The notes beneath the pieces are model-generated. The model did not search any database. It was not told where the DNA came from and saw nothing but the letters and a program-made list of their open reading frames with translations. From positions 1 through 56,354 of the forward strand of contig CALXLA010000035.1 in the NCBI GenBank assembly GCA_944389075.1: DNA of 56,354 nt. The letters run 5' to 3'. Of this stretch, positions 17,608-31,312 are shown in pieces (position 1 is the stretch's first letter; each line of letters opens with the position of its first letter). Source of the DNA: an uncultured Spirochaetaceae bacterium (GTDB taxonomy: Bacteria; Spirochaetota; Spirochaetia; Sphaerochaetales; Sphaerochaetaceae). The position numbers and the translations under genes were made by a program.

Positions 17608-18726
17608 TCAGTTACGCTTTCTTAAAACATCAACTATTGCTTCCGCAATTTTTATCGCATCGTCAATCGTATTATTACTGCCAAAACTAATTCTAACAGT
17701 TCCCTCTGCATATTCATTTGGGACTCCAATAGCTTTAATTACATGTGAGATTTGTGTACTGCCAGAGTCACACGCAGACCCCGTAGATATAGCAATTTTC
17801 TTTAAATCTAGACGGTGCAAAAGAGTCTCTCCACTGATTCCTCTAACTGAAATACTCGTATTCCCAGGAATTCCCAGAGGATCCCCGTTACATATAAAAT
17901 CTACTTTATTCCTTTCCAGCGTATTAAGGAAAATATCTTTTATTGTTCTTAGATTCTGACTAATAGCAAAAAGATTATCACAATTCTTTTTTAGTGCTGT
18001 AGCCATTCCAACTATTGCTGCTACGTTTTCCGTACCAGCACGCATTCTTCTTTCCTGCTTTCCCCCATGGACAATAGGTTTTATCTTAATGCCTCTTCGT
18101 ATATATAAGAACCCAATTCCTTTTGGTCCATTAAACTTATGTGCTGAAGCGGAAAGGAGATCCACATTCAGTGAATTAACATTTATTGGAACATGCCCTA
18201 CAGCTTGAACAGCATCAGTATGGAATATTGAATGATTTTCATGAGCAATACTAGCAAGTTCTGATATTGGTTCTATTGTTCCAATCTCATTATTCGCAAA
18301 CATAATAGATACTAAATTTGTTTTATGAGAAATCTGATTTAAGAGCATTTTGGGCAAAACTATCCCTGTACTGTCTACATCAAGATAGGTAATGTTCGCT
18401 CCACAATCTTCCAAATATTTACAAGTATTTAGAATAGCATGATGTTCAATCTTGCTCGTAATAATATGAGCCTTAGCATTATCTAAAGTTCCTAAAATTG
18501 CCCAATTATCACTCTCTGTACCACCTGAAGTAAAATATATCTCATCTGCGTTTGCCCCAATACAACTTGCAATCAATTCTCTCGAATCTGATATGACCTT
18601 TCGAGGTGCTTGTGCAAATGAATATGGTTGAGATGGATTACCAAACTCTTCTTGTAACCAAGGTAGCATTGCATGCAAAGCATCTATATCTAGCCTTGTT
18701 GTTGCAGCATTATCAGCATAAATCAC
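17608..18726 (-). CDS. Cysteine desulfurase (IscS/NifS/DndA-like)
   Basis: A 372-aa PLP enzyme that converts cysteine to alanine plus an enzyme-bound persulfide. The N-terminus IYADNAATTRL, the PLP lysine in SAHKFNGPKG (Lys197), and the persulfide cysteine in STGSACDSG (Cys319) are all present. The frame opens at 18789 inside the upstream gene, but the true start is almost certainly the GTG at 18726: AGGAG stands a few bases ahead of it and it gives the family N-terminus. It is the last gene of the BREX operon, 13 bases after the 66-aa gene. No IscU or other cluster-assembly gene is nearby, so a dedicated role as sulfur donor to BrxP, like DndA with DndC, is inferred. Confidence 0.9.
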   Translation of the reverse strand: MIYADNAATTRLDIDALHAMLPWLQEEFGNPSQPYSFAQAPRKVISDSRELIASCIGANADEIYFTSGGTESDNWAILGTLDNAKAHIITSKIEHHAILNTCKYLEDCGANITYLDVDSTGIVLPKMLLNQISHKTNLVSIMFANNEIGTIEPISELASIAHENHSIFHTDAVQAVGHVPINVNSLNVDLLSASAHKFNGPKGIGFLYIRRGIKIKPIVHGGKQERRMRAGTENVAAIVGMATALKKNCDNLFAISQNLRTIKDIFLNTLERNKVDFICNGDPLGIPGNTSISVRGISGETLLHRLDLKKIAISTGSACDSGSTQISHVIKAIGVPNEYAEGTVRISFGSNNTIDDAIKIAEAIVDVLRKRN

Positions 18727-18739
18727 GTTAGCTCCTATA

Positions 18740-18940
18740 CTATTGAAATAAGGTGCACCCTTCGTCTTTAAACTCTTCGATTTTAGCAATCAACTCATCT
18801 GAAGAGACTTCAAGATAATCAGCTAGACAATTAATGCAATAAAAATGACTAGCCTTCTGATCTATCAACTTCTTTGTTAAGCCAATTTCATTTTTTGTTA
18901 ACGGCTCTTTACCGCAAACATAGCATTTTCTCCTAACCAT
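18740..18940 (-). CDS. Four-cysteine (zinc-ribbon-like) small protein
   Basis: A 66-aa protein with two CxxC pairs (Cys6/Cys9 and Cys35/Cys38) and a further Cys62, followed by an acidic helical tail. The spacing fits a zinc ribbon or a sulfur/iron-sulfur carrier. I do not recognise a named family. Its ATG immediately follows the TAA of the BrxL gene with no gap, with AGAGG just upstream inside that gene, and the desulfurase GTG follows 13 bases after its stop. Its position between a BREX effector and a cysteine desulfurase suggests a role in sulfur relay or in tethering the desulfurase, but that is inference. Confidence 0.75.
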   Translation of the reverse strand: MVRRKCYVCGKEPLTKNEIGLTKKLIDQKASHFYCINCLADYLEVSSDELIAKIEEFKDEGCTLFQ

Positions 18941-20431
18941 TTAATCTAAACCTCTTACATTAAATGTAGGCAAATCCTTGCCACTATATTCTACATCTAA
19001 TAGACCAAGTTGATATTTTATGGTATCCCTCATTTTTCTTGCACGAGTTAAGCAGTACTTTTTGAAAACATATGGTTCAATGTCAGATGCATGTTCAACA
19101 TGAGGAAACAACAGTTTTAAATATGCTGTGCTTATACGTTTGATTGCTTCTGTATCTCGTGTATCAGCTTGCTCAGGAACAATAATTAATTCATCAACTA
19201 TACTTCTATACGTCATATCACTACGTAGTTCATGCATTATTGAGCAAAAGTATTCAGAATTAAGAGCCCAGCCTCCCACTTTTAGATCATCATTCATGCG
19301 AGGAATATTCCAGCCTTTGATAAATCCATGAAATCTTTCTATAAGAGCTGACTCATGAAAAACTGATGGCAGTTCTGTGAACATATTACTATATCCATCA
19401 GCATCCATTATCTCTTTTCTTATATTTCCGCATAAGATGACGCCAGCATCAGCAACGCCCTTATAGTTTCCTACCGTAAAATTGCCTTGTTCCAAATACC
19501 CCTTTAAGGCAGCTCTCATTTCATCGGTATCTGTAAATGAAATTGTTTGGACCTCGTCTAGAGTAACAAAATCATTTCCAACAATAAGCCCCTCTTTTCT
19601 CTTAGTTTGATCATAGAACATTTTTGCACGACTCATCACACCACCACTAGACAACCAGCCATAACGACTTACATTGCCCAAAAGGTATGACTTCCCTGTT
19701 CCTTTAGGAGCAAGCTCTATCAGATTAAGCCTTTTCTCAACAAAAGGCAAAAGTCTTGTGAGCATTGTTAGTTTTTGTTCCTCATTTTTGTAGCCATTTG
19801 CATTATAGTCCACAGCGCCAAGCAAAATATCCATCCATTCTTCAACAGAAAACTCTTTTCGTGCTTCCTTATATTGATCTAAGTCAATTTGATATGGACA
19901 AAAGTTTTTAAATGAAACCAATTGAATTTTACCTTCTTTTGCCGGTTTGCTTTTCGAATGTTTTGTTTCAAAATCATATTCAATATCACATTCTTCAGGA
20001 GGAAGATATCCCAACGTTATCATCCCCCATATATCATTTCCTTTGACAAGATCGTCTTTACAAGCATCCCATACATCACTTTCTATCACAGTATCTTTAT
20101 TACCAAGTCCAAAGTCTGGTAAAGCAAAAGATACTTTGCCTGTCTTTACATCAATATCAACAGAAATTTTTGCTAGAAATTTTACCAACTCCCCTTCAAT
20201 GATTACTCTATTCTTAATAGCAGTCCAATCATCTTTTCGTGGAATAAATTTTCTAACAAAGCGAGATAAGTCATCTTTATCAAAATTACCTTCATTATCT
20301 TCAAATTTCTTCAAAAGCCAGTCTCTCATAAAAGAAGGCAGGCTAAGAGCAGAAAAGAAGTTGGTCTTCTTCAAATCCTTATATACTACCATTTCATCAA
20401 AGCAATCTCTAAGACGATCTATATAATCCAT
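18941..20431 (-). CDS. brxL: BREX protein BrxL, AAA+ domain without Lon protease domain
   Basis: A 496-aa protein of the BrxL family. An N-terminal region of about 230 residues precedes the AAA+ core with Walker A APKGTGKS (241-248), Walker B DFVTLDEVQ (about 287-295) and a later GNIRKEIMD sensor-like segment. In BREX, BrxL is a DNA-binding AAA+ assembly needed for phage exclusion. Full-length BrxL proteins are usually near 670 aa, with a C-terminal Lon-like domain; here the protein ends after the ATPase and a helical C-terminus, so no protease domain is visible. The frame opens at 20467, but the ATG at 20431 has GGAG seven bases upstream and lies four bases after the pglZ stop, so it is preferred. 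Confidence 0.88.
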   Translation of the reverse strand: MDYIDRLRDCFDEMVVYKDLKKTNFFSALSLPSFMRDWLLKKFEDNEGNFDKDDLSRFVRKFIPRKDDWTAIKNRVIIEGELVKFLAKISVDIDVKTGKVSFALPDFGLGNKDTVIESDVWDACKDDLVKGNDIWGMITLGYLPPEECDIEYDFETKHSKSKPAKEGKIQLVSFKNFCPYQIDLDQYKEARKEFSVEEWMDILLGAVDYNANGYKNEEQKLTMLTRLLPFVEKRLNLIELAPKGTGKSYLLGNVSRYGWLSSGGVMSRAKMFYDQTKRKEGLIVGNDFVTLDEVQTISFTDTDEMRAALKGYLEQGNFTVGNYKGVADAGVILCGNIRKEIMDADGYSNMFTELPSVFHESALIERFHGFIKGWNIPRMNDDLKVGGWALNSEYFCSIMHELRSDMTYRSIVDELIIVPEQADTRDTEAIKRISTAYLKLLFPHVEHASDIEPYVFKKYCLTRARKMRDTIKYQLGLLDVEYSGKDLPTFNVRGLD

Positions 20432-20435
20432 ACTT

Positions 20436-22712
20436 TTACTCCGTAAACAAATCGTCAAAATCGTCATTTAATTTTGCGATTTTACTTTTGATATCAAATT
20501 TAATCGTTCCGATTAAATCTTCTCCATCATATACATTTGCAGATACACCTTTCTTTGCTCGTTTTATATCTGGAATATCAATTGAATAGTAGTGATAGCC
20601 ATTATATGTTTGTGCTTTATAGCGCTTATCACCAATCACAATACTGATATTTTCTTTATGTTCAGCATCTAAAATGTAGATAACTATATTTGTACCTAAA
20701 TTTCGATCACAATATATTGAATTCTCATTAAGTAGCATAATTTTCAAATTACTTTGCTTCTTAAGGGAAAGAGTAATAACTGGGACGATAACTTCTTCTA
20801 AAGTAGCACCTCCATGCACTTCAACATTTGCTGCTCTACTATTTTTAAATCGACCATAGTTTGCCAAGACAAAATAACCATTTTCACGTACAGCCTGAGG
20901 AAGATCAGCATCAGGAAATTCCTTACAACATCTTCCCGAATGTTCTCCCTTGGTATCCGTCTCATACTTTTCTTCTTGATGATGAATTACAGCCAATCGA
21001 GATGCTCCATGGTCGCTTGCAATTACAAATTGTTTGCATTTATGTAATGCAAGCTCAGTTGTAGCATAATTCATCGCTTCCTCGATAACCTTCAGCTCTA
21101 AAGCTAAATGGACTGGTGCTTGCCCTGGCTGATAGTAATATCCGCCCTCCGCCTTGTGCTTTATTTCATCAAGCCTAGATTCTTTCTTTTTTCTAGAGTC
21201 GCTCCACTTATCATAGAACCCTCTGTTAATAGAAGTAATAGAAGGCAACGAAACATATGTAATATCTGTTTTAATCGACAACCCGTTTTTTTTCGCCAAA
21301 TACGAAATATAAGGAAGATATTCAATGCCTAGTGCATCTATCCAAAGCAAAAATGAATCCTTATCATCAGGAATACGTAATATTGCGCTATCTCTTGATT
21401 CGAGTCGAGTATATGGAAGTTCTGATGCATTCTGGTTCACCAAATCCATAAACTCTGGTGTTATTCTATTTTCTAGCTTGAGATATCTATATTGCTTAAA
21501 ATATTGTGTTAATTTATCCGAGAGTTTTCCACAATCAAATGGATATTCACTTAAATATTGAGACAGTGCAGGATAAATTGTAGATATGTCATCAATATAG
21601 CCATTTTGGGATACCCATTTAATTATTTCTTCTTTCTCAATTTTAGTATTATCTGTTAAATGATAAATACATTCACTTGGATCTATATTATTTTCCTGGA
21701 TAAAATAAGCAATCTCAGATTCAGGATAATCTCGTATTATTCTTTTCCGTTCAAAATAAAACTTGTCAAAACGACTATCTTTTCGAGGTATCTGGATTAT
21801 TTTGGTAAGAACATTTCTACTCAAATCTTCATAATGATCTGTTTGTGTAACAACGTATGCTAAGTAACTATTCTGAATATTTTCATAGTTCTGTTTTAGA
21901 GCTACAAAGAAAAGCCAATTCTTGTATTCTAAACCTGTACTTTTTTTGAAGAAGTCTTCTTCAAAATTATCTTGATATCCTCTATCCATTAGTAGCTTAT
22001 CTAAGCTGTACTTGTTTTTCTGAAGATCAAGAAATAGTCGCTCCCATTGAGCATCTTCGCCCATCTCTTTAGACAACCTTAATTTGGGAATATTATGTTT
22101 TACTGCATCAAATGCAGTCCTTATGTAAGTTATAGGTAGCAGTGAGTTGCTGTAATCTAATTCTGATTGAAAATAAATTAATCCTGTATTCCCATCTTCA
22201 AGCTCATGTAAAAGACCTTTTATTCCTTTTGCAACGTTTATATTTATTGTATACCTTGTACATACTGTATTTATTAATTCGTTTTCACTTTGGTCAATGT
22301 ACAAACGCTGCTGCTCTATTGTTCTAGTATCTTCGTTCAAGATGTCTTTTACATGCGAAGTAACATGCCGTAAGAGGAGGACAACCCGCGCCGTCCCCAG
22401 TGTGGTTTTTTCTAATCGGCGTATCAGCTTTTCAGCTACATTTGAACCTCTTATTGCCATAAACTCACCAAGGCCTATGAGGACGTGTTTATTTTCACGA
22501 TAGTCCATATCCAAAGTTCGAAAATAATCTATTACATCATCAATATTTGGGAACTTGTCTTCTTTAGGACAAAAATCGCTGATTCTATCAACAATTATGT
22601 TATTTTGTTTAAACTTGCTCAGTACTTGGTCATATTTTATATCCCCAACAATATAGAAGAAAGGCAATCCCTTTACGTCGGAAAAATACTGTTTTACCAT
22701 CTCACACAACAT
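20436..22712 (-). CDS. pglZ: BREX protein PglZ (alkaline-phosphatase-superfamily domain)
   Basis: A 758-aa protein. The C-terminal half is a PglZ domain: LLWIDALG (455-462) supplies the first metal aspartate, IASDHG (564-569) the second metal site, and HSGR (591-594) a further histidine. PglZ is the hallmark gene present in all BREX types; its domain belongs to the alkaline phosphatase/sulfatase superfamily, with nuclease or phosphodiesterase activity reported for some members. The N-terminal 400 residues are helical and unassigned. The ATG overlaps the TAA of brxC by one base (TAATG), so translation is coupled and the products are likely made in fixed ratio. Confidence 0.93.
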   Translation of the reverse strand: MLCEMVKQYFSDVKGLPFFYIVGDIKYDQVLSKFKQNNIIVDRISDFCPKEDKFPNIDDVIDYFRTLDMDYRENKHVLIGLGEFMAIRGSNVAEKLIRRLEKTTLGTARVVLLLRHVTSHVKDILNEDTRTIEQQRLYIDQSENELINTVCTRYTININVAKGIKGLLHELEDGNTGLIYFQSELDYSNSLLPITYIRTAFDAVKHNIPKLRLSKEMGEDAQWERLFLDLQKNKYSLDKLLMDRGYQDNFEEDFFKKSTGLEYKNWLFFVALKQNYENIQNSYLAYVVTQTDHYEDLSRNVLTKIIQIPRKDSRFDKFYFERKRIIRDYPESEIAYFIQENNIDPSECIYHLTDNTKIEKEEIIKWVSQNGYIDDISTIYPALSQYLSEYPFDCGKLSDKLTQYFKQYRYLKLENRITPEFMDLVNQNASELPYTRLESRDSAILRIPDDKDSFLLWIDALGIEYLPYISYLAKKNGLSIKTDITYVSLPSITSINRGFYDKWSDSRKKKESRLDEIKHKAEGGYYYQPGQAPVHLALELKVIEEAMNYATTELALHKCKQFVIASDHGASRLAVIHHQEEKYETDTKGEHSGRCCKEFPDADLPQAVRENGYFVLANYGRFKNSRAANVEVHGGATLEEVIVPVITLSLKKQSNLKIMLLNENSIYCDRNLGTNIVIYILDAEHKENISIVIGDKRYKAQTYNGYHYYSIDIPDIKRAKKGVSANVYDGEDLIGTIKFDIKSKIAKLNDDFDDLFTE

Positions 22713-25700
22713 TATGATTCCTTCCCTCCACTACTAATAATCTTAGCTCCTAATTCTATATCCTTTTCAACAAGGTTCTTGAGCCATGTCTTTAGTTGAT
22801 CTTCAGTCATCGCATCGATTGCACTTATTACCGAATCACTACCACCGGAATAGTATTCAGCCTCTGCCATTTTCTTTATTTCATCACTAATTAAAGGATC
22901 ATCGCACCACTCATAAGCAGGAATATTGGTGGATTCAAGTCTATCCCGAATCTGATTTATATCAGTAAGAATGCCTGCATATGATTTAACTAAGCGATCA
23001 AAAAAGCATTTGTCCCTAAAGTCACGATCTGCAATAGATTCAAAGAAAGTAGCAGTCTCCAGGAAGTTCAATGCATTTTTAATTTCGCTCTCATTCTGTT
23101 GACCACCATTAAGAACAGAAAAAGCTTTTTTGGCAGCGCTATATATTTGCGGGTCAATACAACAAAGAATAGGAGTTCTATGTTGCTCTGACCATTGCAT
23201 AGGTGTCTTTGATCCATTTGTTTTACTGCTCCAAAGGCTGTAAAGCTGATTTTTAACTTGATTTTTGCGATAATCTGTAGCTGCTTTCTTTACAACCTCA
23301 TTCCCCTTAGTTGAAGTTAATACAAACATATCTTCCGTAATGGAATTCTTAATATCCTCACACTCCTCAGGGGTAAACCCATTTAGGTATGGAGAATAAA
23401 GATCTATGAAAACATGTAAAGGAGAGCCTATCAGACTATGTAGCTCTACATTATGCATAATCAGCTCGTCATATATTGTTTTGAGATCTGCTGGTAAAAT
23501 ATCTTCGTAATTTGCCACCTTTAGCAAGATCGTAACTAACATACTTAGATTTGGGAATTTAGCTTTCAAAGACTCACCAGATAATCCCAAAAACTTTAGC
23601 GTTTCTCTCCAAGCTTTAAACGTATCTTCCTTAGTACTCTTTTGTACATTTAAAATACTGTTCGATACATTAATGAAGCTGTATTCAATTATTAGCTTTC
23701 GAATCTCATCTTCTCCAGTTGACAAGTTCCACAAGGCTGCGTATTTGACGCTAAACAGTTTCTTGATATCAGCCAATAAATGTTCAGTTGCTCCTATGTC
23801 ATTTGCTAAAGAAGTAAGCTTACCACCTTCAAAATGTTGGATAAACAGAGACATTCCTTTTTGACAATTCTCTTCTGTCAATAAAGCCCGTAAATTATCT
23901 CCATAAGTATTTCTACCAAGATTTATCTTTCCTATTTCAATTGCAATAGAATGAGCCTTATCAGCTTCATTCTGGATCAACTCCATATATTTTTTGACAA
24001 TATCAAAGACACCATTATCATCCACCTCTTCAAGCGCCCATACAGGGAATATGAATTCTCTCATTCTTTTTTGAATCAGATTAATTGTTTGAGAAATAGA
24101 AGAACATGAATCTGGATTTATTCGCCAAGCCTTTTCCGTTAATTCATAAAAAGACTTTTCTTCAGGTGTAAGACTTACAATATATGCTGATTTACTTTTC
24201 CTTGAATAGAAGTTACCTATCGTCTCAGCAAGCTTATCGCTTGTCATTGGCTCTTGATGACCTTCACAATCTAGGAAACGATAGGGCTCTGACTTATATT
24301 CTTTAAGCAAGAAACCAACAATGAATGCAGTTAAATTTGATGGTGCATATCCATAAGTCTCTTCTAAGAATAAACAAATCGTTTCAATTGAAATTCTGCC
24401 ACTTTCCTTGAATGCTTTGGAGATTAAATCATCAACTGCTAATTTGACTATTGAAAACGGATCGTTTTCTAAATCAGGATCCTTCCAATACTCTTTTATA
24501 TTCCAAACCTTGTTTAAGACCCTATTTTCACATCCTGCAATTAATCCCTTTACTTCTGTCTCTTTAAAACCAAATCGTGCAACCTGTTTCGGCTGAGTAA
24601 CCTTGAGCTGATTCTCTGTTAAACCTTTTATAAAATCAGGGATAAATTCAAAACGTTGTAAGACAAATGTTCTCATGATTGTATAAACATCATTAATTCC
24701 AGCAGCTTTCTCTCCATCTTGATTCGAATAAGACCATACAATGAATGATCCATCATGTAATCGTGATTTCCATGCAACTGAAAGAACTTCCTTTGCCTTT
24801 CTACCATTCTCCTTCGCTTGTTGAGCATTATTTCCTGTATAGTAGCTCGCCATTGCAGAATAATTTACGTATTCCTCAAAAGCCTCACGTCCCAACGGTG
24901 TTGATAGGGTATCTATTACAATTATATTTTTGTAATCCTCATTCGAAATAGTTTTCTTAATTTGATTTCGGAATATTAGAGCCTCATCCTCAGTCTTTGC
25001 AACTGCAAGAACAGCATAAAAATGCCAGCCAAAATCTTTGACCTTAAGCTGATCCATTATCTTTGTAAAATTATGTATGGTGACAACAGGCAGTGAACCT
25101 TTGTCCATATTGTCCGAATATCGCAATCTCAGAGGCGGTGTTAGGCTAAGCGAAGTTGCAATTTCTTCACCTTCCTCAACTAACTTAGATATGTTTGCAA
25201 GTTTTCTTATATCTTCTTTAAACTTATCAATCTTAGTACTATCACCGGCTAAAACAGCTGCAGCATAAACCTGACGCCCATCCACGCTAGGTGTTTTGAT
25301 AAGAATCCCTTTATCAACAAGTCCTTTTGCCAAACCTTTACACTCATTAGCATATTCTTCTGCATCTCCCTCAAATGCATAGGAGAGGCTCTGATCCGTT
25401 GGCTTTAGCAAAGGAATTGCACCACCGAGACGTTGATCAACAGCTTGCATAATTAAGATTGTTTTCAACACAACCTTTTCTTTTTCTATAAGATTTGCTT
25501 GCTGTGGATAGGTATCCAGAATAAGTTTTATATCAGATGTTAAATAGTCTTTTCCTTTTTCATAGAAAAAGTCCCACAGCATGTCAATGGTGAGCAAGCG
25601 ACGATCAGATAATGGGCTAGCATTTTGAATAAACCATTGGAAAGCATGCGCATCTAAATCTCTTGGAGTCTTTATAAAATCAAACATACTTCTCTGGTTT

Positions 25701-26875
25701 GATTGAAATGCAGATGCTATATTTTTTAGAACCAGAGCCGCCATTGGGTGAATAGGAAGCATCTTTTTCATCACGTCATCATTTTTAACATCCACAGCTT
25801 TCATAACGGCATTCTTTGAAGCATCAACCGAGTCGCTTAAGTCATTTATAGTTTTTTCCCACTGACTCTTTGCTGCATCTATTACAGAAAAAGCATGTCC
25901 TATTAACTCAAATGCAATATTAGAAGGAAGAGTTATCTCAATTTGAACAAAACGCTGCATCACGACACTCATGGGGTCGTCTCGAGAGACCGTAGCTCCT
26001 GCAATAGAAGTTATAGGATGGGTAACAATAACAAAATAAAAATGTGTTTCCTGACACAGAGACACTATCTTTTGGAATTCATCTAATGAACTGCGATTTT
26101 GGCGGAAGAATCCACTAAACTCATCCCAAATTAAAACAATCTTCGTACGGTTTTTTTCTATTACATCTTTTATCCAATCAGAAAGAGAATCGGCCGTTAA
26201 ATTCAAGGCAGTAATACCTTCTTTTGTAGCCATCTTAAATATACTTTCCATTAAGTCCGATACATCACTACTCTTTCTCAATGAATTTATTATTTCATCT
26301 GCACTAGACTGTGAAAATTCTGACATCCATTCTGGCTTTTTCAAAAGCTCGTTCACAAACCCATTATGTGCCGTATCAGACAGCCAGCTGATAACACTTT
26401 CTTTAAGAGTATTTTCTCCTTTATATGCATTTGGAATAGCATCAAGAGCATTTCGGATACTTTCTTGGATGGCAAGGAAAAGTAATTGGGGCGATGTGAT
26501 ACTTCCAGAGGCATAACGATAGGCAGGTAATACACCTTGTTCTTTATGCCCAATTAGCTTATTCAATAGAACATGATTCTTTCGTAAAGAGTCATAACGA
26601 TTCCAATATTCTTGAAGTTCATCATCTGGAACTTCCAAAATCCTTTTTAAAGCATAAGCACACTGGGACTTTCCTGTTCCGTATGCACCATGAATCCAAA
26701 TCGAACGATTTGTTGTTCCTCCTAACATCTTCTCAACGTTATTCAGCAAATTAATAAAAGTTTCGTGTGGGTAAGTTGTCTCCCAAGGAGCACCAGCGTT
26801 AATCGCAGACTCATCTATGCAAGGAAAATAAGATTCATTTACATTGAAATATTCACAGTATTTATTGACAGCCAT
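22712..26875 (-). CDS. brxC: BREX protein BrxC/PglY-type large ATPase
   Basis: A 1387-aa P-loop ATPase, near the usual size of BrxC (about 1200). Walker A is GAYGTGKS (63-70) and Walker B VLIWDEF (247-253), followed by helical regions of the ORC/STAND-like type and a long C-terminal helical scaffold. BrxC/PglY is the second universal BREX component and is needed for both modification and exclusion, probably as a DNA-bound motor. The ATG comes one base after the brxP stop, and the gene overlaps pglZ by one base. No frameshift is seen over the 4.2 kb, so the system appears intact. Confidence 0.92.
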   Translation of the reverse strand: MAVNKYCEYFNVNESYFPCIDESAINAGAPWETTYPHETFINLLNNVEKMLGGTTNRSIWIHGAYGTGKSQCAYALKRILEVPDDELQEYWNRYDSLRKNHVLLNKLIGHKEQGVLPAYRYASGSITSPQLLFLAIQESIRNALDAIPNAYKGENTLKESVISWLSDTAHNGFVNELLKKPEWMSEFSQSSADEIINSLRKSSDVSDLMESIFKMATKEGITALNLTADSLSDWIKDVIEKNRTKIVLIWDEFSGFFRQNRSSLDEFQKIVSLCQETHFYFVIVTHPITSIAGATVSRDDPMSVVMQRFVQIEITLPSNIAFELIGHAFSVIDAAKSQWEKTINDLSDSVDASKNAVMKAVDVKNDDVMKKMLPIHPMAALVLKNIASAFQSNQRSMFDFIKTPRDLDAHAFQWFIQNASPLSDRRLLTIDMLWDFFYEKGKDYLTSDIKLILDTYPQQANLIEKEKVVLKTILIMQAVDQRLGGAIPLLKPTDQSLSYAFEGDAEEYANECKGLAKGLVDKGILIKTPSVDGRQVYAAAVLAGDSTKIDKFKEDIRKLANISKLVEEGEEIATSLSLTPPLRLRYSDNMDKGSLPVVTIHNFTKIMDQLKVKDFGWHFYAVLAVAKTEDEALIFRNQIKKTISNEDYKNIIVIDTLSTPLGREAFEEYVNYSAMASYYTGNNAQQAKENGRKAKEVLSVAWKSRLHDGSFIVWSYSNQDGEKAAGINDVYTIMRTFVLQRFEFIPDFIKGLTENQLKVTQPKQVARFGFKETEVKGLIAGCENRVLNKVWNIKEYWKDPDLENDPFSIVKLAVDDLISKAFKESGRISIETICLFLEETYGYAPSNLTAFIVGFLLKEYKSEPYRFLDCEGHQEPMTSDKLAETIGNFYSRKSKSAYIVSLTPEEKSFYELTEKAWRINPDSCSSISQTINLIQKRMREFIFPVWALEEVDDNGVFDIVKKYMELIQNEADKAHSIAIEIGKINLGRNTYGDNLRALLTEENCQKGMSLFIQHFEGGKLTSLANDIGATEHLLADIKKLFSVKYAALWNLSTGEDEIRKLIIEYSFINVSNSILNVQKSTKEDTFKAWRETLKFLGLSGESLKAKFPNLSMLVTILLKVANYEDILPADLKTIYDELIMHNVELHSLIGSPLHVFIDLYSPYLNGFTPEECEDIKNSITEDMFVLTSTKGNEVVKKAATDYRKNQVKNQLYSLWSSKTNGSKTPMQWSEQHRTPILCCIDPQIYSAAKKAFSVLNGGQQNESEIKNALNFLETATFFESIADRDFRDKCFFDRLVKSYAGILTDINQIRDRLESTNIPAYEWCDDPLISDEIKKMAEAEYYSGGSDSVISAIDAMTEDQLKTWLKNLVEKDIELGAKIISSGGKES

Positions 26876-26876
26876 A

Positions 26877-29195
26877 TTAGAACTCCTCCTCGAACAACGT
26901 CAGGACATCAGTTGAGCTTTTATCACGCAAAGATACGCTTTGAAGGTCATTAGTGTACGTTGCGTTGATGAAATCTGGGTAACGAGCGGTCAGACCTACT
27001 AATATTGTCCTTAATTCTTCTGCGTCTTCTATCCCAAACAACCTCACAGGACTTATTCCATTACGCTCAACCTCTTCATCAAATAAATATGAAACATTAA
27101 ACTCTTTCCCAATATTGCATTTTTCAGCAAATAAATACAAAGAATATAAGATAATACGATTATCATTTATACTACATTTTGTGCGACATAATCCTACGAT
27201 TTGTCTGCCATCTTCTTCTACGTACCCCCAATTCAAAGTTTCACCTAGAGGCAGCTCACAGAACCTTTTATATGAATTGATAATTGAGGTTGCATCATCT
27301 TTCTTTACCCCATCAGATACAAGTAGATCACTGATATACTTGCGATCATAATACTCGCCAATATTCATATTTTCGATGTACCATCTGCATTGCCTATTGT
27401 ATGCAAGATTGGATAGCATTAACCCCCACGCTGTATTATCTCTCCATCCAATGCGCTTAATAATATCAAATAAGATGGTAGTTTTATTCTTTGAATCTAT
27501 TACTCCACACTCTCTCAAAAAACGTTTAAACATTGGAACCTGGTTTTTACCTAATGAATTATTTCCTTCATTCCAATATTCATTTCCAAGATTAAAGAAT
27601 TCCTGTACCCAACTTGACTTAGGTGCATGATTTGCAAACGAGTTAATACTTTCCTTTTTCATAATCCCTTCCCCATTATTTGTTCGAACAGAGTGATATA
27701 CTAAACATCCATCATCAATTTCATGACACTGCCCACAATGTATGCAATCTGTTATAGACAAACCTCCGTCAAATGATATACATCCATTTCTACAATTTGT
27801 CTCGCATACTCTACAGCCCACACAATGGGACGCTTTCTTGAATACCTGCTTAAATTTTTTAAATACATTAGGGTATGTTTTGGCTTCCTTTGCAGAACAA
27901 GTAATAACATAACCATCCGTCGTTTCCGTATAATCAAATTCGAAAGGAATTTCGCCAATAGTTTTTATCCATTCTCGCCAATCTGTTGTCGGAGATGTAA
28001 CAGTAATAATGTATTTCCCATCAATTATCTCTTCAAAACAACGCTGACTAGCAATTGTCAAATCCCTTCCATTTTTCCTTGCATTCCAGCCACCGTTAGA
28101 AACATAACTATCCAAAGCCTTCTCGTCTGAAGAATCTTTAGAGTTCATATCTTTAATTATGGAAATGTATCTTTCTACTTCGTCTGGATATGAAGACCTC
28201 TGAATATAATCCCCTTTGCCTCCTCCCATCGGACAAAAGAGACAACCAGCTCGAGAGTTTCCTTTCTTATAGGCAGAATTAATTTCTAGTTTGTTTATAA
28301 AAATATAAAGCCATACCTCATAAGATGTCCATTCTAGAATAGGATTATAACTATACTGTCCCTTCTGTTTCTTACCTATACCTTCATAATCATACCTGCT
28401 ACGAGAAACACTCTCATGGGCTCTAACCCCAACAAAATCTAAGCCAATATAATCATCTTTACCTGTTATCTCCCTCATTTTTAATGTTTGCGGTGTGCTC
28501 TTATGTACACTACAACACCAACGTAAAACACGAGCAGGAGGCCCAAACAATTTCCAAGAATCTAATGGATCAAAATGAGATTGAGCAATATAGAAAGGTG
28601 TACCATCTTTTTCACATTCAGTCTTTACTTTCGACACAGTCTCATACGTATCTGGGAATTCCATGCCAGTATCACCGAATATGACAACAAAGCTTCCAAC
28701 AGGAAGTGCTTTCTTTACTAGGTCCAAAAGAACTGTGCTATCTTTTCCTCCAGAATAAGCCACATGGAAGATATCTAAACGATTTTTAAATTTCTCATAT
28801 TCCTGAATTATTTTCCTGACCGTATTGTTTTCTATGATATTAATCAATTCTTTATTTCGATTACACATCTCAGAAACATTAATTGGCTTTAGAACAATTC
28901 CATTTTCTCTGGAGAATGGAATTAAGCCTCTCTCATTAGGAATAGGCTCTAATTCTGGGACTGCATACAAGGATCCGCCTTTAGCTCTAGCTATTTGGAC
29001 TCCATGATACCAATACACATTAGATTCTGCCCACATATATGGTACATCACATTCATTATCGAATTCCCAATATTTGTGAAATCCCAAAAGATTCATCTCC
29101 TGTGCCCATACCGGACGAGGTTCTTTTGAAAAGACAGTAGGGGAAGAATTAAGAATAATTCCACCAGTGTCTGAGTCATAAACATATGAATACAT
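26877..29195 (-). CDS. brxP: BREX type 4 protein BrxP (PAPS-reductase/DndC-like, ferredoxin motif)
   Basis: A 772-aa protein marking BREX type 4. The PP-loop SGGKDS (148-153) is that of PAPS reductases and of DndC, which adenylates substrates before sulfur insertion. CC at 227-228 and CLFC at 318-321 are placed like the cluster ligands of DndC-type enzymes. A second cysteine-rich block (Cys458, 461, 464, 468 and 484, 487, 490) matches a 4Fe-4S ferredoxin pair. The last 250 residues resemble the DUF4007-type domain seen with Dnd-like systems (weak, by eye). GAGAGGGGG precedes the ATG. No methyltransferase (PglX/BrxX) is present, so BrxP probably provides the self-marking chemistry. Confidence 0.9.
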   Translation of the reverse strand: MYSYVYDSDTGGIILNSSPTVFSKEPRPVWAQEMNLLGFHKYWEFDNECDVPYMWAESNVYWYHGVQIARAKGGSLYAVPELEPIPNERGLIPFSRENGIVLKPINVSEMCNRNKELINIIENNTVRKIIQEYEKFKNRLDIFHVAYSGGKDSTVLLDLVKKALPVGSFVVIFGDTGMEFPDTYETVSKVKTECEKDGTPFYIAQSHFDPLDSWKLFGPPARVLRWCCSVHKSTPQTLKMREITGKDDYIGLDFVGVRAHESVSRSRYDYEGIGKKQKGQYSYNPILEWTSYEVWLYIFINKLEINSAYKKGNSRAGCLFCPMGGGKGDYIQRSSYPDEVERYISIIKDMNSKDSSDEKALDSYVSNGGWNARKNGRDLTIASQRCFEEIIDGKYIITVTSPTTDWREWIKTIGEIPFEFDYTETTDGYVITCSAKEAKTYPNVFKKFKQVFKKASHCVGCRVCETNCRNGCISFDGGLSITDCIHCGQCHEIDDGCLVYHSVRTNNGEGIMKKESINSFANHAPKSSWVQEFFNLGNEYWNEGNNSLGKNQVPMFKRFLRECGVIDSKNKTTILFDIIKRIGWRDNTAWGLMLSNLAYNRQCRWYIENMNIGEYYDRKYISDLLVSDGVKKDDATSIINSYKRFCELPLGETLNWGYVEEDGRQIVGLCRTKCSINDNRIILYSLYLFAEKCNIGKEFNVSYLFDEEVERNGISPVRLFGIEDAEELRTILVGLTARYPDFINATYTNDLQSVSLRDKSSTDVLTLFEEEF

Positions 29196-29200
29196 TGGAA

Positions 29201-31312
29201 TTACACCCCCTCTCTTTTTTTCTTTGCCTGCTCGATTATGGTAGACATGTTTGAATATTCTCTTTTTGCAGTATATCCATTTTCAAAGAAATACTGTCCT
29301 ATCATTTCTTCAGTGAGCTCTACATTGGAAAAAGCTGCAGTATCACACAGTATTTCAAAATAACTAAGATCCAGACCTTTCGATACAATTATCCCAACAT
29401 TCTTATCATTGAAATGATTTACCAAAAGCTTAAAAAGCTTACTGAATCGATAACAATAACTCTCTAGCAGGTAATAATTCCATGCCACTCCACATGATGG
29501 AAACAAGGCAAATGTTGCGATACTTTTAATCGATGTAAATCGATTACCGACAATCTCTGATAGTATCTCATCTATTTTCTCACAATCAAAATTGATTTGA
29601 GCATCTGAAATAAAATCGTCCTCCGATATTCTAATCATTGAATCATAAAGAACAGTCAACACTCTTTGCTTATTTGGCACTCCTGCCAATTCACTATCTA
29701 TCGAAAGTAGCTCAGATACTGTGCATTTTGCTTTGTTCTTACAATTTCTTGTTAGCAAGGAAGGAAGATCTATTTCATTACATTTAGTAAGAATCTTACC
29801 ATCCTTCAAGTAGTATTCATCTTTAAAAAGAGCATTATATATAGATTCTTGTATTGCTCTTTCTGTTAGCTCGAAGTATTCATCACTTATCTTTTGATAA
29901 GGCAGTTTCGCAATCGAAACATACCCACGCAAATCGCATTCATGCCTTACATAATTAGATAATAATTCCTTATCATAATTTGAAAGGGTAAAGTGCCTTA
30001 AAACAAAATATGTTCCATCTCCATTCCACACAAATTCTGAGCTAGAAGACAAGCACCTCACTATTTTAGTTGCTGGAACATAAGGTAATTTATGCTTCAG
30101 AGAATTACAGTCAACAAAATATTCGTCTCCACAAACCCGATTTACTTCCTGGACAACAGCTTCTTGCTCATTGACCTTGCCTTTGGAAATGAAATTTAAA
30201 CCATAAAATAAGCCCGGCCTAACTATTCGAGAAACAGATTTTAGCATTTCAGATGAAATAACGTGGTGCTGTTTTAAAAACTGCTCATTGATTTTCATTA
30301 GGCAATCTAAGAAAGCAACATTTGTTTCCGTGTCGAAAATGTTGTCAAGGATCGAAGCAACACCATCAATAAGAGCCTCATCTAGAACAAAAATCTTCTC
30401 GTCAATTTTTACACCAGCAGCAAGTATCTCCCTTTTTACGTCTTCATTTGCCTCTGGAAGAATAACATTGTTCATCTCAGCAAAATTTCGAAGTCGCATA
30501 ATATGCATTTCAGAATTAATCGGGAATCCATATACATAATGCTCGGATATAATCTGTTTTATTATTGAGCTAAATCTTGGAGTATATTCGATGCCTTCTG
30601 CATATATGTTTCTTTTCCGCCTAATGGCCTCAATATCATTAGGCTTTGAGTATTTTATTACCACATCGTGATGATCAATCCCACAAAGCTTAAATAATGC
30701 TCGCAACTTGTTAATAATGGTCGTTGTACTTACATTACATTCAAGATAAAGATTATCTGATATCTCTTTTGGATTAACCATTCCATCAGAATTTCCAATG
30801 TCAATGCGCGAACTTGAAGACAATTTACAAGAAATAGGGAATGTTTCAGTGCATTCAGTATAAATCAACTTAACAAGGTTGATATATAATTCATTCCATC
30901 CATTACATTGGACACTATGTCCTTTATATTTGCAACTTATTGGCTTAGTGTACTTGTAACTGCTAGATATAGAGAAATCTACAATATGTTCTACTCTGTT
31001 GTCACAAGAACCTAGATTGAAATTGTTATCAGGGTTACCTACCTTATACTGAGCAACAACATCACTGAATACATCTCTCTTGGTCCCATTGTTACCGTTC
31101 TGGTAATAATCAGCTATTTCCAAAAAATGTGTGTGAACATCGTTAGGACTTCCGAATTCATCTGCTGTCACAAATTCTTCAGACTTCTTTTTGCTTAGTT
31201 CATTTGAAACAAACAAAATAGCATCTTCTTCAGATAGTTCACCTTTATTGAACTTCAAATAATAACTAAGTAGCAATGTTGCATCGTCTCTGTCCCACTC
31301 ATGCTGTTGCAT
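29201..31312 (-). CDS. Unrecognised 703-aa protein, first gene of the BREX operon
   Basis: I do not recognise a family. There is no Walker motif, signal peptide or membrane segment. The first 40 residues (WDRDDATLLLSYYLKF) are acidic/aromatic and helical, and the remainder looks like mixed helical and winged-helix-type segments, so a DNA- or protein-binding role is possible. It has an AAGGTG site, ends five bases before brxP and starts the operon. The minimal type 4 set described for BREX is brxP, brxC, pglZ and brxL, so this gene is either an accessory factor or a specificity/sensor subunit. Its base composition matches the other island genes. Confidence 0.75.
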   Translation of the reverse strand: MQQHEWDRDDATLLLSYYLKFNKGELSEEDAILFVSNELSKKKSEEFVTADEFGSPNDVHTHFLEIADYYQNGNNGTKRDVFSDVVAQYKVGNPDNNFNLGSCDNRVEHIVDFSISSSYKYTKPISCKYKGHSVQCNGWNELYINLVKLIYTECTETFPISCKLSSSSRIDIGNSDGMVNPKEISDNLYLECNVSTTTIINKLRALFKLCGIDHHDVVIKYSKPNDIEAIRRKRNIYAEGIEYTPRFSSIIKQIISEHYVYGFPINSEMHIMRLRNFAEMNNVILPEANEDVKREILAAGVKIDEKIFVLDEALIDGVASILDNIFDTETNVAFLDCLMKINEQFLKQHHVISSEMLKSVSRIVRPGLFYGLNFISKGKVNEQEAVVQEVNRVCGDEYFVDCNSLKHKLPYVPATKIVRCLSSSSEFVWNGDGTYFVLRHFTLSNYDKELLSNYVRHECDLRGYVSIAKLPYQKISDEYFELTERAIQESIYNALFKDEYYLKDGKILTKCNEIDLPSLLTRNCKNKAKCTVSELLSIDSELAGVPNKQRVLTVLYDSMIRISEDDFISDAQINFDCEKIDEILSEIVGNRFTSIKSIATFALFPSCGVAWNYYLLESYCYRFSKLFKLLVNHFNDKNVGIIVSKGLDLSYFEILCDTAAFSNVELTEEMIGQYFFENGYTAKREYSNMSTIIEQAKKKREGV

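Follow-up and report, generated by a model that had tools for sequence, protein, structure and literature searches.

A fast-evolving, modular winged-helix protein encoded ahead of brxP is a candidate DNA-reading subunit of type 4 BREX

In type I bacteriophage exclusion (BREX) systems the specificity factor is BrxX (PMC11842806). Type 4 is given as brxPCZL (PMC11931770, PMC12707154), and a detailed recent survey lists as its components only BrxC, phosphoadenosine phosphosulfate (PAPS) reductase, DUF4007, PglZ, BrxL and cysteine desulfurase (PMC12839542). The same survey describes a BrxA/DUF4007/SspB-like component, built of several helix-turn-helix (HTH) or winged HTH units and proposed to be a DNA scanner, and reports that DUF4007 is often fused to BrxP in type 4 (PMC12839542). 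No BREX-4 component is credited, in the literature covered, with choosing the sites of phosphorothioation (PT) or with discriminating self from non-self without a methyltransferase. Here we describe the lead gene of a BREX-4 operon in an uncultured Spirochaetaceae bacterium (GenBank assembly GCA_944389075.1, contig CALXLA010000035.1, positions 1 to 56,354; this stretch of 56,354 nucleotides is called the window). Its 703-residue product, named here LEAD, belongs to a family that revises the parts list of BREX-4, which is known from reports on the human gut microbiome. The family also provides one conserved, fast-evolving gene with exchangeable modules of putative DNA-reading type to which the question of BREX-4 site choice can be tied.

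A lead gene outside the published type 4 set

All core genes of BREX type 4 are present in order in the window, together with a cysteine desulfurase (Table 1): PglZ is of the BREX-4 type, BrxP stands in place of a methyltransferase, and BrxC and BrxL are both encoded. An additional open reading frame (ORF) on the minus strand, with its ATG at 31312 and the end of its stop codon at 29201, precedes the ATG of brxP (29195) by 5 nt and has a ribosome-binding site of its own with a good match (AAAGGTGA, 31323–31316). The ribosome-binding site of brxP lies within the 3′ end of this ORF, which suggests that LEAD and brxP are translationally coupled. The GC content of the gene (34.5%) resembles that of the remaining genes of the island (33.8–36.4%), the tested flanking genes reaching 48–50%. 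LEAD has no match in Pfam, NCBIfam or PADLOC, nor, by sequence, in the Protein Data Bank (PDB). A sequence-only reading of the window had described an unrecognised protein of this size, five bases ahead of brxP and sharing the AT-rich composition of the operon, as the lead gene of a type 4 BREX operon and not a member of the known set; each of these statements is borne out.

The published type 4 component set contains no lead gene of the LEAD family (PMC12839542, PMC11931770, PMC12707154), and the main text of the BREX survey makes no mention of SeqA, the protein that one LEAD module resembles (PMC12839542). Judged on published main texts, the family is undescribed as a part of type 4 BREX; supplements and one preprint lay outside this comparison, and an earlier mention is possible.

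Distribution of the LEAD family

Scans for close relatives with the LEAD protein alone returned nothing in genome or viral contigs and, because of its divergence, the family stayed hidden until BrxP was used as bait. The first homologue, found by tblastn, is a 975-residue protein whose gene immediately precedes brxP; the BREX-4 operon there is complete (MT835511.1). The BrxP-bait sample comprised 85 loci (80 from genomes, 4 from the viral set and MT835511), five of which have brxP at a contig edge, leaving 80 informative. A LEAD homologue is present in all 80; in 79 it immediately precedes brxP in the same orientation, with gaps mostly of −14 to +37 nt, and in the one exception (L116) it lies elsewhere within the locus. 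Homologues at the same operon position share the C-terminal core in dozens of genomes (hidden Markov model (HMM) E values of 1e-67 to 1e-252), which shows that the LEAD ORF is not a chance ORF, and any suspicion that the gene was peculiar to the window's operon is dispelled.

As this first sample had been selected on BrxP similarity, a second was seeded by PglZ-4, which was used instead of the BrxP family model because the latter also picks up ferredoxins and lacks the specificity needed for tallies across genomes. Among the 18 informative loci of this sample, drawn from four phyla, the LEAD family occurs in 8, two of them (L160 and L163) with a sigma-70 region 4 N-terminus; a probable distant relative of 471 residues occurs in 3, and the remaining 7 have neither. 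BREX-4 on a Methanosphaera plasmid is also without LEAD. In the BrxP tree the eight lead-less rows form a single group (support 100) adjoining the sigma-type leads, and the lead-bearing rows span 16 phyla, an archaeon among these. The expectation that homologues always precede brxP therefore holds almost without exception in BrxP-selected loci and fails in the PglZ-4 sample and on the plasmid. Neither of the outcomes that would have spoken against the sequence-only reading, homology to a well-known unrelated family or absence of the gene from every other brxP operon, was found. The LEAD family is thus a regular member of a large type 4 branch, neither universal nor an oddity of the window, and type 4 BREX divides into lead-bearing and lead-less branches.

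The lead gene of L151, L152 and L155 probably encodes a relative of the LEAD family, to judge from profile linkage through an intermediate: the connection runs only via L169 (97% and 96%), the direct comparison giving 1.4%. This second lead type lies before brxP at L151:12297–13712, L152:12748–13890 and L155:6040–7155, and the L151 copy, of 471 residues, matches the PADLOC candidate PDC-S57.

Predicted structure of the core

The AlphaFold2 model of LEAD, built on a 67-sequence alignment, has a mean predicted local distance difference test (pLDDT) score of 91.4, and in this model the conserved core (residues 245–703) is a tandem winged-helix array. In Foldseek and VIA comparisons, the top matches of the core have either one winged helix or a whole array of them (UFL1, SelB, ESCRT-II, IclR and Z-alpha); since whole-chain TM-scores are low, these matches show the fold of the units and not kinship. 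No enzyme fold is evident in the predicted structure, and conservation is strongest at positions that are mainly structural or aromatic. With a median isoelectric point (pI) of 5.3 and a net charge of −13, the core is acidic.

The proposed choice of DNA sites would be common to LEAD and BrxX/PglX, the type I methyltransferase with a target recognition domain. However, the fold of LEAD differs, and no methyltransferase domain is found in it by Pfam, NCBIfam, PADLOC or in the winged-helix model. The multi-HTH make-up of the BrxA/DUF4007/SspB-like component resembles that of LEAD. Homology with BrxA/DUF4007 was considered and is not visible by profile: the whole-BrxP profile, which includes the DUF4007-like region, gave a probability of 0.4% against the LEAD profile, BrxA itself being outside this comparison.

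N-terminal modules and their exchange

SeqA, the replication sequestration protein of Escherichia coli, reads freshly copied DNA. When folded with its neighbours, the LEAD module spanning residues 108–225 matches the complex of SeqA with hemimethylated DNA (VIA Z 8.3, with 94 of 115 residues aligned at an r.m.s.d. of 2.6; the second-best row has Z 5.1). Comparison with a SeqA profile by hhalign gave a probability of 88% and an E value of 2.8e-6 for one comparison, with a score of 40.2, whereas 60 column-shuffled controls reached at most 17.7. Predicted structure and sequence profile thus concur independently in indicating that this module is a SeqA-like domain of DNA-binding type. SeqA contacts GATC through Arg116-Thr117-Arg118, Asn150 and Asn152 (PMC6225831). 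The C-terminal DNA-reading domain of SeqA resembles the LEAD module in fold, in profile and at two of the corresponding positions, R169 being the counterpart of Arg118 and N193 that of Asn150. Asn152, in contrast, corresponds to a serine (S195) in LEAD, and several family members have asparagine at this third position. The module occurs in 18 leads at varying positions, with two copies in L077. A link between it and the N-terminus of Shedu SduA was rejected as too weak (E 0.06).

The helical module at the N-terminus of LEAD, named here ND, may be a shared DNA-reading part. One candidate considered for its identity, the sulfur-binding domain of PT-dependent restriction enzymes, showed no PDB sequence match and was absent among the VIA rows listed. 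An ND module is also found at the N-terminus of a 238-residue HNH-type protein encoded between the sigma-type lead and brxP in L163 (6162–6878).

Other leads carry alternative N-terminal modules, namely integrase core-binding-like SAM repeats (33 of 83 leads with an HMM built in this analysis), Cro/C1 HTH, sigma-70 region 4 and RNA polymerase (RNAP) alpha C-terminal domain (alpha-CTD). MzaA, the sigma-70-like protein of the MZA system, has only sigma-70 region 4 in common with the sigma-type leads, the rest being unmatched. N-terminal modules are exchanged between leads. In L078 the SeqA-like module has been inserted cleanly into a lead whose parts on either side closely resemble L063; L052 and L118 have BrxP proteins that are 94% identical and N-termini that are 17–22% identical; and among 54 pairs with BrxP 70–80% identical, 19 have N-termini without detectable similarity. 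LEAD is also the fastest-evolving gene of the operon. Median identity to the window's proteins is 28% for LEAD, 38% for PglZ, 46% for BrxC, 53% for the cysteine desulfurase, 54% for BrxP and 73% for BrxL, and LEAD identity falls below that of PglZ in 98% of 250 random pairs.

Large relatives of LEAD in and outside BREX

Large proteins combining RNAP alpha-CTD-like and sigma-70 region 4 domains with a LEAD-type winged-helix core are encoded at L004 (G000:C30:503–3247), L005, L174 (3030–5507) and L175 (8206–11148), and one of the four belongs to the window's own genome. They have the core family in common with LEAD and differ from it in their N-terminal modules. Kinship of the core is clear for L004 and L005 (HMM E about 1e-21; hhalign 99.9%). 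The L174 and L175 copies are solitary amid unrelated genes, with no BREX genes within the stretches inspected. Proteins of the same alpha-CTD and sigma-70 region 4 type also serve as a BREX lead in L120, the leads of L160 and L163 having sigma-70 region 4 only.

Proposed function and alternative explanations

We consider that LEAD stands about an even chance of being the DNA-reading, target-selection subunit of the large PT BREX-4 branch. This function is favoured by the swappable modules of DNA-binding type, the SeqA-like one included, by the winged-helix core and by the fastest evolution in the operon, and the regular presence of LEAD in the BrxP-selected loci and the lack of BrxX in type 4 also count for it. 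Module exchange and fast evolution are marks expected of a recognition subunit, although a sensor would display them too. The exchangeable N-terminal modules would bind DNA and read its sequence, its modification state or both, and the C-terminal winged-helix array would dock this reader onto the BREX machinery, presumably BrxP or BrxC, BrxP being made alongside through translational coupling. LEAD could then direct BrxP and BrxC to sites for phosphorothioation on self-DNA, and could license exclusion by BrxC, PglZ and BrxL against unmarked phage DNA.

Several observations weigh against target selection. Core-only leads make up 28 of 83, so that the N-terminal reader is not constant, and in the lead-less clade the function of LEAD is either dispensable or supplied by another part. 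The acidity of the core fits docking to proteins as well as, or better than, binding of DNA. The structural match to SeqA is a single VIA row whose Z of 8.3, though 3 units above the next, is close to the noise level of 7–8; SeqA lies outside the Foldseek top 50 for the module; and the SeqA profile is small, with six sequences derived from SeqA, of which one is a 20-residue fragment that carries no information. The target-recognition role that the sequence-only reading had guessed at is thus favoured by the modules, the core and the rate of evolution, and is weakened by the core-only leads and the lead-less clade. A bolder version, in which LEAD is the missing specificity determinant of PT-type BREX, a modular ‘S subunit' whose SeqA-like versions would recognise hemi-modified DNA in the wake of the replication fork, is speculative and in our view unlikely; BREX-4 would on that view maintain the mark in the backbone of daughter strands and attack wholly unmarked DNA.

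An operon regulator is another unlikely reading. LEAD would bind the promoter region that precedes its own gene and control BREX expression, as BrxR does in type I. Its place as first gene behind a 654-nt intergenic region, its winged-helix core, the homologues with sigma-70 region 4 and RNAP alpha-CTD domains and the solitary non-BREX homologues in genomes of the same genus are all consistent with such a role. The large size, the extreme divergence and the swapping of reader modules speak against it, as does the tight coupling to brxP in place of separate transcription. Its upstream region shows just short inverted repeats and no striking operator-like repeat. In addition, the BREX-4 locus of MT835511.1 has a WYL-type regulator at the opposite end of the operon.

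The phage sensor proposed in the sequence-only reading appears rather improbable. In such a mechanism, variable modules of the sigma region 4, alpha-CTD or integrase-like kind would mimic host DNA or the RNA-polymerase partners attacked by phage proteins; once a phage protein had bound, the winged-helix core would switch and activate BREX. Fast evolution and module exchange fit a sensor, as do the leads with sigma region 4 and alpha-CTD modules, but most modules are of ordinary DNA-binding types, core-only leads are numerous and SeqA is not known to be targeted by phages. Slightly less probable again is a purely structural part, a scaffold or chaperone to BrxP and BrxC, that reads no DNA and has accessory N-terminal parts; the acidic core, the resemblance to UFL1, ESCRT-II and other winged-helix arrays of protein–protein type and the existence of core-only leads are in keeping with it, but it leaves the exchange of DNA-binding-type modules and the SeqA-like domain unexplained. 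Least likely is an effector that lacks classical motifs, such as the nuclease guessed at in the sequence-only reading. In its favour stand the frequent uptake of auxiliary nucleases by BREX loci (PMC12839542) and the ND module of a small HNH-type protein, but it is very hard to reconcile with a confident model in which no enzyme fold is evident, with the lack of a nuclease motif and with conservation mainly at structural or aromatic positions.

The operon and its genomic setting

The entire operon (17608–31312) forms an AT-rich island. No RNA families or tRNA were found in the window, and promoter scans gave results no better than shuffles. Residues 519–757 of BrxP match PADLOC PDLC02511, labelled BrxP (5e-15), Pfam DUF4007 itself giving no match. 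The nearest BrxP, 74% identical, comes from a Christensenellaceae metagenome-assembled genome, and no full-length LEAD homologue was found in the other same-genus genomes searched; together these comparisons suggest that the operon was gained horizontally and recently.

Table 1. Features of the window's BREX-4 operon and of the LEAD protein.
Feature	Coordinates	Strand	Evidence
Lead gene of BREX-4 operon (LEAD), 703 aa	29201..31312	-	ORF, ribosome-binding site and homologues at brxP loci
ND, helical module, aa 1-95, motif W..YE..LL	31028..31312	-	Found in 24 leads; model
SeqA-like module, aa 108-225	30638..30991	-	VIA match to 1iu3_C; SeqA profile comparison
Conserved core, aa 245-703, predicted tandem winged-helix array	29204..30580	-	AlphaFold2; Foldseek and VIA matches; HMM
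Best-conserved winged helix, aa 571-648, motif FPxCGxxWNxxLLESYCxRFS..NxNxG	29369..29602	-	Mean information 2.25 bits vs 1.6-1.7 in other units
brxP ribosome-binding site GAGAGGGGG	29206..29214	-	Sequence; inside LEAD 3′ end, last codons
brxP, PAPS-reductase / phosphorothioation enzyme with Fe-S region	26877..29195	-	PADLOC BrxP 1e-241; Pfam PAPS_reduct 1.8e-28
brxC, ATPase	22712..26875	-	PADLOC BrxC, E 0, 1491 bits
pglZ, BREX-4 type	20436..22712	-	NCBIfam BREX_PglZ_4 (NF033445) 486.8 bits; cut-off 140
brxL	18941..20467	-	PADLOC 4e-225; Pfam BrxL_ATPase 2.1e-111
Cysteine desulfurase, DndA/SspA-like	17608..18789	-	PADLOC DndA 1.5e-131, SspA 9.9e-130

An operon-borne cysteine desulfurase is frequent in the lead-bearing branch and was not found within the inspected stretches of the eight lead-less and three S57-type loci. 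One lead-less BREX-4 locus encodes a full sigma-70-like factor of 493 residues 28 nt upstream of brxP (L164:12627–14108). The MT835511.1 record (positions 1–31012, L006) is labelled ‘Bacteriophage sp. clone scaffold_74' and is actually a bacterial chromosomal stretch with a complete BREX-4 operon; its neighbours include serine dehydratase-like, era-like and pyruvate phosphate dikinase-like genes, and weakly YpsA/SLOG-like genes flank it on both sides. Finally, the lead genes of L085 (2436–4411), L153 (12034–14355) and L097 (9190–9996) are shortened or split in two ORFs, with adjacent BREX genes that seem intact within the stretches inspected, which may reflect decay, sequencing error or phase switching.
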